The translations under genes were made by a program, and so were the position numbers. Shown here in pieces: positions 37,674 through 41,184 of a stretch of 64,000 nt of DNA; the first letter of the stretch is position 1, and every line of letters starts with the position of its first letter. Where the stretch lies: positions 186,001 through 250,000 of the forward strand of contig NZ_CACZTX010000006.1 in assembly GCF_902784195.1 (NCBI RefSeq), read 5' to 3'. This DNA comes from an uncultured Methanobrevibacter sp. (GTDB taxonomy: Archaea > Methanobacteriota > Methanobacteria > Methanobacteriales > Methanobacteriaceae). The notes beneath the pieces are model-generated. The model saw only the letters and a program-made list of their open reading frames with translations. It did not search any database and was not told the origin of the DNA.

Positions 37674-37706
37674 TATTTTAATCACTTACAATATATTTTA
37701 ATATAC

Positions 37707-37851
37707 AATTCTCAGGGCGGAGTGAAATTCTCCACCGGTGGTGATTCATTAGTGCAAAAATTTTTTCTAAAAATGATAAGTCCACGAGCACAATTGTGTT
37801 GATTTGGTGAAAGTCCAAAACCGACGGTGACAGTCCGGATGGAAGAGAATA
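37707..37851 (+). promoter_or_regulatory. FMN riboswitch (RFN element)
   Basis: The conserved FMN aptamer is readable in order. The P1 arms are ATTCTC (37708-37713) and GAGAAT (37845-37850). The core reads AGGGCGGAGTGAAATTCTCC, then ACCGGTGGT, a variable arm, TCCACGAGC, then GATTTGGTGAAAGTCCAAAA, CCGACGGTGACAGTCCGGAT and GGAAGAGAAT. These match the RFN consensus at nearly every invariant stretch. It lies 165 bases before ribB in the same direction, which fits feedback control of riboflavin synthesis by FMN. The class is overwhelmingly bacterial, so its presence here is notable. Confidence 0.93.
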
Positions 37852-37878
37852 TGAGTTTAAAGTAAATAGGTTAGATAA

Positions 37879-38016: not shown

Positions 38017-38658
38017 ATGAATCATGAAGAAAGTTTAAAAGGAAGTCCTCAAGAAAGAGTGGAAATAGCATTGGATGCAATTAGATCAGGAAATGGAGTC
38101 ATTGTAACTGATGATGAGACACGTGAGAATGAAGGAGACATGATCTTTTCATCAGAACACTTGACTGAGGAGCAAATGGCACTTCTCATAAGAGAAGGAA
38201 GTGGAATCGTATGCTTATGCTTAACTCCTGATAAGGCAGATGAATTGGAACTTCCTTTAATGGTAGAAAACAATACAAGTACCTATGGTACTGGATTTAC
38301 AATAACAATTGAAGCAGCAGAAGGAGTAACCACTGGCGTATCTGCAGCAGACAGAGTAAAAACCGTTAAGGCTGCATCAAATCCAGATGCAAAGCCAAGT
38401 GATTTAAACCACCCAGGTCACGTATTCCCTCTTAGAGCAAGAGAAGGTGGAGTGCTTGAAAGAGATGGCCATACTGAAGCAACCATTGATTTAATGAGAC
38501 TTGCTGGCCTTAATCCTGCGGGGGTATTATGTGAAATCACATTGCCAAACGGAACCATGGCAAGGATGCCAGATGTTATTGAGTTCTCAAAAGAGCATGA
38601 CATGCCTGTTGTAACAATTGAAGATATTATTACATATCGTAAAGAAAATAACGTTTAA
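38017..38658 (+). CDS. ribB: 3,4-dihydroxy-2-butanone 4-phosphate synthase
   Basis: Makes the four-carbon unit for riboflavin from ribulose 5-phosphate. The 213-residue single-domain enzyme has the metal and phosphate motif [66 protein letters not shown] and [14 protein letters not shown]. The sequence is strikingly close to Escherichia coli RibB in these blocks. Together with the FMN riboswitch upstream this suggests the whole unit came from bacteria. An AAGGAG site precedes the ATG. It is followed directly by a structured terminator repeat. Confidence 0.96.
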
Positions 38659-40563: not shown

Positions 40564-40794
40564 ATCTTGGAAAAAATAATTCGTATTGTAATAAACTATT
40601 TTTTTAAGAATATTATTATATTAATTTAACAATATTATAATTGATTAAAACTGTTAAATTGACTTAATATTTGTAAATTGATATTAAATTAAAAAAATAA
40701 ATCCAAAAATTAGTTAAATTAATAAATAATTAGTTTTAAACTAATATTTGGCAATTCTAAATTTGGAAATTTATCTAGAACTACAAATTTTAAG

Positions 40795-40840
40795 CAGGAG
40801 GAAAAACACAAGTATGCTCCTGACTAAAAGACAGGAGGTG
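40795..40840 (+). promoter_or_regulatory. Two Shine-Dalgarno sites competing for one anti-SD
   Basis: CAGGAG occurs at 40795-40800 (SD of the first tiny ORF) and 40832-40837 (SD of the second). CTCCTG, codons 2-3 of the first ORF at 40817-40822, is complementary to both. Only one pairing can form at a time, which would link initiation of the two frames. This is an arrangement seen directly; its function is inferred. Confidence 0.5.
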
Positions 40841-40849
40841 GTTCTATGA
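40814..40849 (+). CDS. Leader peptide-like ORF (11 residues)
   Basis: MLLTKRQEVVL then TGA, with a GCAGGAGG site upstream (spacing about 12). Its stop overlaps the start of the next frame as ATGA. Codons 2 and 3 (CTC CTG) form the anti-Shine-Dalgarno arm. The peptide has a faint resemblance to the start of Tfx/sigma-like helix-turn-helix proteins, but it is too short to assign. It may be a regulatory leader whose translation opens the next ribosome-binding site. Confidence 0.4.
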   Translation: MLLTKRQEVVL

Positions 40850-40929
40850 TGGATGAAATTTTAAAACTACTACGTGCCATTAGTTTAATAAATAGAATTC
40901 ATATTACCTTTTGTATAAAAATTAATTAA
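40846..40929 (+). CDS. Short ORF coupled to a leader peptide (27 residues)
   Basis: It starts ATGATG, overlapping the stop of the 11-residue frame, with a near-ideal CAGGAGGTG site five bases before. The product MMDEILKLLRAISLINRIHI... is amphipathic in its first half and ends CIKIN. No family is recognised. Two hairpin terminators follow at 41054 and 41085, so a separate small transcript is plausible. It may be a small regulatory or membrane-active peptide, or a remnant of a longer gene. Confidence 0.4.
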   Translation: MMDEILKLLRAISLINRIHITFCIKIN

Positions 40930-41053
40930 TTTGTAAAAATTTTTAAATACTGAGTAATTTAAATTTTCCATTTTTAGTTTTGCCTTAGAAATTTCTAGAG
41001 ATAAAAATATTTAAATATTTAAAAAAACTATATTTAATTAAATACTTGTGTGT

Positions 41054-41077
41054 CAATCTCATTTGAGATTGATTTTT
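41054..41077 (+). terminator. Terminator of the tiny-ORF transcript
   Basis: An 8-bp perfect stem (CAATCTCA/TGAGATTG) with a 2-base loop is followed by ATTTTT. Confidence 0.7.
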
Positions 41078-41084
41078 CCTGCTA

Positions 41085-41109
41085 GTGGAGATTTATCTCC
41101 ACTTTTTTT
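41085..41109 (+). terminator. Repeated terminator, copy 2
   Basis: Stem GTGGAG/CTCCAC, 6-base loop ATTTAT, seven T, then ATCTTG. It differs from the copy at 40540 mainly in the loop; the 25 bases after the stem also match. The gene on the right is on the other strand, so this serves the tiny-ORF transcript or is a duplication scar. Confidence 0.8.
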
Positions 41110-41184
41110 ATCTTGTAAAAAATAGTTCGTGTGAAATGAAATAATTTATGTAAAAACTTGTTTTAAAAAAATAAAAAAGGAGTT

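Follow-up and report, generated by a model that had tools for sequence, protein, structure and literature searches.

What role do two very short, overlapping reading frames play between the genes of a Methanobrevibacter contig? In the window, by which we mean the whole stretch of 64,000 nucleotides analysed here, an 11-codon frame (frame 1) and a 27-codon frame (frame 2) overlap at the ATGA of positions 40846-40849, with CAGGAG at 40795-40800 and again at 40832-40837, and with CTCCTG between them at 40817-40822. This arrangement, with which the preliminary description of the locus began, is confirmed by the coordinates and does not look like a product of base composition: the 64 kb window holds a single CAGGAG...CTCCTG...CAGGAG triple, and 100 dinucleotide shuffles gave none. 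The terminators that had been placed downstream are real as well, the region holding 3 terminator-like hairpins where 0.1 would be expected, among them those at 41052-41073 and 41084-41103.

The locus is flanked on its upstream side by a gene for a fumarate-reductase/succinate-dehydrogenase flavoprotein, which ends in its own terminator, and on its downstream side by a gene for a MarR-type regulator that runs in the opposite direction. Both neighbours are functionally unrelated to the module. Elsewhere in the window, an FMN riboswitch in this archaeal host (37704-37854; Rfam RF00050, scoring 102 bits where the cut-off is 66) precedes a ribB-like DHBP synthase gene (38017-38658).

The broader idea of a self-contained RNA or peptide system also stands, with the additions that the whole element extends beyond frames 1 and 2, from about 40690 to 41110, and that an RNA lying downstream and complementary to the leader belongs to it. 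As set out below, we consider it probable that the module consists of a gene for a membrane-type peptide and an adjacent small RNA (sRNA) that silences the peptide's own message in a toxin-antitoxin-like manner. The features of the element described here all lie on the + strand.

Copies of the element

Ten full copies were found in eight Methanobrevibacter genomes, three of them in this genome: the window copy (own6) and two copies elsewhere (own1a and own1b), which stand in tandem at C1:277880-278900 (L069) and carry different pairing arms. The other Methanobrevibacter genomes compared are denoted by G-numbers (G004, G005, G015 and so on). Over the 471 bases from 40640 to 41110, identity is 98% in G015, 87% in G016 and G005, 81% in G004 and 64-68% in G018, G010 and G011. 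The copies, one tandem pair among them, are found at four or more chromosomal sites: behind the flavoprotein gene, close to a gene that we take, by eye, to be deoC-like, before one that we likewise take to be rpl15e, and at the C1 site. At the rpl15e site (G010 L067, G011 L068, G018 L066) the module lies upstream of rpl15e and its left-hand neighbour differs in each genome, a comparison that suggests rearrangement around the module.

No convincing copy outside the genus was found by a pattern search of the family's 139 genomes, by a covariance model run on 37 relatives or by a strict pattern in the public genome collection. Four non-archaeal pattern matches, in Paracoccus, Muribaculaceae, Ketobacter and Rhodothermales, had neither the sRNA motif nor a comparable small frame, and motif matches in other genera of the family were in or at coding genes. 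In viral contigs the sRNA pattern gave no match, and one match to the element pattern, having neither peptide nor sRNA motif, was taken as chance.

Frame 2 as a peptide gene

Frame 2 (40846-40929, with the stop codon TAA at 40927-40929) encodes the 27-codon peptide MMDEILKLLRAISLINRIHITFCIKIN. It is open in all ten copies at 26-27 codons, has no indels and always follows directly after the Shine-Dalgarno (SD) sequence. Between own1a and own1b it shows 10 synonymous and 6 non-synonymous changes (dN/dS 0.11), and between G016 and G005 it shows 3 synonymous and 0 non-synonymous changes; the pooled Fisher p for selection is 1.7e-6, calculated with approximate site counts. Judged by this pattern of substitution, frame 2 is a real gene under purifying selection.

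Five of the peptides (e.g. MMDVLLKLSILFILLGFIQVVIYILI) have GRAVY values of 2.1-2.4 and are thus as hydrophobic as a single membrane helix. The five window-type peptides (MMDEILKLLRAISLINRIHITFCIKIN) are instead amphipathic and slightly cationic, with GRAVY values of 0.76-0.95, so that their hydrophobicity falls short of that of the other copies and of typical type I toxins. The frame-2 peptides matched no family in Pfam, NCBIfam or PADLOC, and nothing in Rfam reached the gathering score for the module; a hit to RsaA on the opposite strand (E 0.084, 24 bits against a cut-off of 50) was dismissed as chance.

The leader and its predicted switch

The promoter of the peptide mRNA is predicted at 40713-40750 from the AT-rich, BRE/TATA-like sequence GTTAAATTAATAAATAA, whose spacing to GGCAA is near-constant in the 10-copy alignment, and the 5' end of the mRNA is predicted near 40745-40750. 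In the 5' UTR (40750-40792) GGCAA can pair with TTGCC at 40980-40984 in the 3' UTR; this pairing of the two ends has a probability of 0.69-1.0 in the 10 mRNAs folded with the sRNA part excluded, and with its little covariation it is weakly supported. Folding also predicts that AGAACTAC (40777-40784) pairs over the start codon region GTGGTTCT.

The switch strand AGCAGG(AG) at 40793-40800, of which AGCAGG is present in 10/10 copies, can pair with CUCCUG in cis or with CCUGCU of the sRNA. The anti-SD strand CTCCTGACT (40817-40825) has two alternative partners, AGCAGGAG upstream of it and the SD, and TCCTGACT is invariant in all ten copies. The SD of frame 2, AGGAGGTG (40833-40840), is a near-complete match to the archaeal anti-SD, and a purine-rich SD is found in nine of the ten copies. 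In the remaining copy, own1b, the SD reads AGTAGG and folding predicts no closure over it, so that this copy may be decaying or differently regulated.

The SD/anti-SD hairpin has 86% standard pairs across the ten copies, and the SD is thus hidden in structure, as in type I toxin mRNAs; by itself the hairpin shows one-sided changes only, and we do not claim covariation for it. In folds of the unbound leader UCCUG pairs with AGCAGG, which leaves the SD more open, or with the SD. Because SD accessibility in these folds is only partial (0.04-0.82), the ON state may need processing. When AGCAGG is masked, UCCUG:SD pairing rises in 10/10 leader folds, and in the window copy it goes from 0.00 to 0.83. 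Conserved pairing elements and folds therefore support the earlier proposal of one CTCCTG with two mutually exclusive partners.

The part of that proposal which concerned frame 1, as a leader that senses ribosomes, does not survive comparison. Frame 1 (MLLTKRQEVVL, 11 codons, 40814-40849, with the stop codon TGA at 40847-40849) begins with ATA in G005, has its start removed by a deletion in G004, has lost its stop in G016 and is missing from the five more distant copies. The conservation in relatives that had been named as a check was thus seen for frame 2 and for the pairing and was not seen for frame 1; the conserved upstream leader frame of leader-peptide attenuation is lacking, and on this comparison frame 1 is incidental and not a conserved leader peptide. 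The first CAGGAG, previously read as the SD of frame 1, is instead, through its invariant AGCAGG, a strand of the switch and the predicted target of the sRNA. The signal is predicted to come from a small RNA whose gene lies 200 nt further downstream, rather than from ribosomes on frame 1.

The predicted downstream small RNA

Sequence comparison and folding predict an antitoxin-like sRNA of about 70 nt at 41038-41110. Its putative promoter, GATAAAAATATTTAAATATT (41000-41020), was recognised by an AT-rich motif whose TTAnATA core is invariant in 12 aligned copies, two orphans among them, and lies at a near-constant distance upstream of the pairing arm in all copies. The core is followed by a variable stretch, a hairpin, the invariant CCTGCTAG and a terminator hairpin; in the window these segments comprise the specific arm (41042-41051), hairpin 1 (41052-41073), the CCTGCT element (41078-41083) and the terminator hairpin (41084-41103), with a T-run. 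No terminator was found between frame 2 and the sRNA segment.

At each locus the variable stretch of the sRNA is reverse-complementary to an equally variable leader segment lying between AGCAGG and TCCTGACT; in the window that segment is the locus-specific target arm at 40806-40815, assigned by a cognate-pair test and by compensatory changes. The leader and sRNA arms read ACACAAGUAU and AUACUUGUGU in the window, ACACGAGUAU and AUACUCGUGU in G004, AUACGAACUU and AAGUUCGUAU in own1a, and UUGUAAUCGU and ACGAUUACAA in own1b. Cognate leader/sRNA pairing energies range from -12.6 to -18.5 kcal/mol, and among the 40,320 ways of matching the leaders and sRNAs of eight distinct loci the true one gives the lowest summed energy (-117.5 compared to a permutation mean of -48.4, sd 11.2). 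The three copies of this genome have different arms, with energies of -12.6 to -13.8 kcal/mol for cognate and -1.6 to -6.3 kcal/mol for non-cognate combinations. In the paired-arm alignment 100% of the pairs are formed and 9 of the 10 variable pairs show two-sided changes; the covariation score is matched by 0 of 500 shuffles, and slid registers are only 26-43% paired. The rows of this alignment are abridged pieces that we placed in the cognate register ourselves, and the permutation test is therefore the less biased of the two.

Beside the arms, AGCAGG and CCUGCU lengthen the duplex to about 16 pairs, the sRNA side being interrupted by its hairpin. Co-folds of mRNA and sRNA pair the two arms at P >= 0.92 in all ten cases and leave the SD unpaired at <= 0.15 in 9/10, the exception being own1b with its AGTAGG. 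By computation, then, the candidate antitoxin RNA is complementary to the candidate toxin mRNA, as in type I systems. When the full-length mRNA is folded, the leader pairs with the 3' end at P 0.29-1.0, exceeding 0.9 in 7/10.

Three loci carry the sRNA without a peptide gene, and the reverse was found at no locus. In G002 (L006:1500-1613) a deletion between the upstream terminator and the sRNA promoter has removed the peptide gene and its promoter, leaving the TATA-like box at the deletion edge and the sRNA intact. In G005 the peptide gene is lost at the own1a site (C43, L099), and in G011 (C1:191061-191184, L135) a diverged sRNA stands alone downstream of the flavoprotein gene. This direction of loss, read from few events, is the one that a protective role of the RNA against the peptide would predict, and the orphan sRNAs might act on other mRNAs or on other copies of the peptide message. 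At a contig edge in G007 (C29, L105) the CCTGCTAG/terminator segment of the sRNA is present at the contig end.

Proposed mechanism and alternatives

Our favoured model has two genes. The first would give an mRNA for the hydrophobic or amphipathic peptide of 26-27 residues encoded by frame 2, in whose leader UCCUG would alternate between its AGCAGG partner, with the SD relatively free, and its SD partner, with the SD closed. The second, on the same strand just downstream and with a terminator common to both, would give the sRNA of about 70 nt, whose locus-specific 5' arm and CCUGCU would jointly bind AGCAGG and the variable segment next to it in the cognate mRNA. By capturing AGCAGG the sRNA would free UCCUG to close over the SD, and peptide synthesis would be blocked. 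We infer that the peptide mRNA and the sRNA are separate transcripts, that the sRNA acts in trans and that the peptide is toxic, most likely at the membrane. Because no terminator separates the two genes, a read-through mRNA would bear the sRNA sequence of about 70 nt at its 3' end and could fold likewise in cis, in which case the full-length mRNA may be silenced by this pairing too.

The alternative closest to this model is a small membrane protein under the control of the sRNA that is not a toxin and modulates a membrane complex or a transporter. The RNA evidence for it would be identical, many small single-helix proteins of prokaryotes are not toxins, and the window-type peptide is amphipathic, with the modest GRAVY range given above. 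Insulated tandem paralogues, sRNA-only loci and shifting sites are, however, more typical of toxin-antitoxin modules, and we regard a non-toxin as unlikely, although worth keeping in mind. A purely cis-acting riboregulator, in which the downstream segment is the 3' UTR of the mRNA folding back on the leader and there is no separate sRNA, can be entertained because no terminator separates the genes, and the full-length folds do join the leader to the 3' end. Yet the segment and its TATA-like box are kept at the three loci that have no peptide gene, and TTAnATA stands at a near-constant distance before the pairing arm, as would fit a transcript of its own, which makes a pure 3' UTR element improbable.

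Two further explanations fare much worse. That translation of frame 1, or stalling on it, governs access to the SD of frame 2 would fit the ATGA overlap present in the window and in G015, but the pairing elements persist where frame 1 is broken (G005, G004 and G016) or absent (five copies). We reject this form of control because frame 1 is not conserved, and consider it very improbable. Finally, the region is very AT-rich and frame 2 is short, as might be expected of chance features in intergenic DNA or of a decayed gene; against this stand the 81-98% identity of the 471 bases in four relatives, the absence of the triple from shuffled sequence, the coding selection on frame 2 and the covariation of leader and sRNA, which leave chance or decay with next to no probability.

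More tentatively, the preferred toxin-antitoxin-like module could represent an archaeal type I family with a new layout. In such a family an sRNA lying within the toxin unit, on its strand and with a common 3' end, would silence the full-length mRNA in cis and the processed mRNA in trans, by refolding the SD and not by covering it, and the arms would diversify to insulate paralogues in one cell. We regard this fuller picture as plausible but short of probable.

Significance and relation to known systems

According to a 2025 paper, type I systems were known from Proteobacteria, Firmicutes and Tenericutes alone until its own cyanobacterial case (PMC12390103), and our search of open-licence papers turned up no archaeal example. 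If true, our model extends RNA-controlled toxins to the Archaea, namely to methanogens of the rumen, and its layout differs from the antisense and divergent type I arrangements. Searches for archaeal type I systems built on antisense overlap would miss such modules. The covariation of the arms, moreover, supplies ready-made orthogonal mRNA/sRNA pairs and a direct arm-swap prediction.

The type I class is defined by toxicity and by repression in trans, and as the module is known here from sequence and computation, we say that it works like a type I system rather than that it is one. Its peptide, at 26-27 aa, falls within the small (<60 aa), usually hydrophobic peptides of this class. No match to a described type I family, such as TisB, Hok, Fst, Ldr or Ibs, was found in Pfam, NCBIfam, PADLOC or Rfam. 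Because type I families are largely unrelated in sequence, this result argues against membership of any described family and not against the type I kind.

In type III systems (ToxIN) an RNA antitoxin encoded on the toxin strand binds a ribonuclease protein. The module shares the placing of its candidate RNA antitoxin on the strand of the candidate toxin gene; its RNA is, however, complementary to an mRNA, no nuclease is encoded, and in place of an endoribonuclease bound by repeated RNA there is a peptide of 26-27 aa with no family match. Among archaeal sRNAs, sRNA162 of Methanosarcina mazei masks a ribosome-binding site and has separate domains (PMC3510493). It resembles the module's RNA in acting at a 5' UTR or ribosome-binding site, but its targets are a regulator mRNA and a cis-antisense mRNA, and it is not part of a small peptide module.

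Long-range pairing between the 5' and 3' ends, alternative structures and an RNA antitoxin characterise hok/Sok and AapA1/IsoA1. Functional metastable structures are reported for a Helicobacter pylori type I toxin mRNA (PMC6733600). The module is, by prediction, like these two systems in all three respects, whereas their antitoxins are cis-antisense to the toxin gene and its own candidate follows the peptide gene on the 3' side and shares its strand.

The tisB mRNA carries a non-translated upstream frame, tisA. In tisB/istR-1 of E. coli a hydrophobic peptide of 29 aa is encoded by an mRNA whose SD is held in structure, and IstR-1 has 21 nt of complementarity to a section of the 5' UTR that lies apart from the SD (PMC4147584). 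The likeness to the module thus covers a small peptide, a structured SD, an sRNA with short complementarity to the 5' UTR and a non-translated upstream frame. On the other hand, IstR-1 is divergently encoded and blocks a standby site, whereas the RNA of the module is encoded downstream, on the strand of the peptide gene, and would, by prediction, refold the leader so that UCCUG closes the SD; the two belong to different domains of life, and no sequence relation between them was detected. By analogy, then, the working mode of the module would be closest to those of tisB/istR-1 and hok/Sok, from which it differs in its layout, its predicted displacement switch and the domain of its host.
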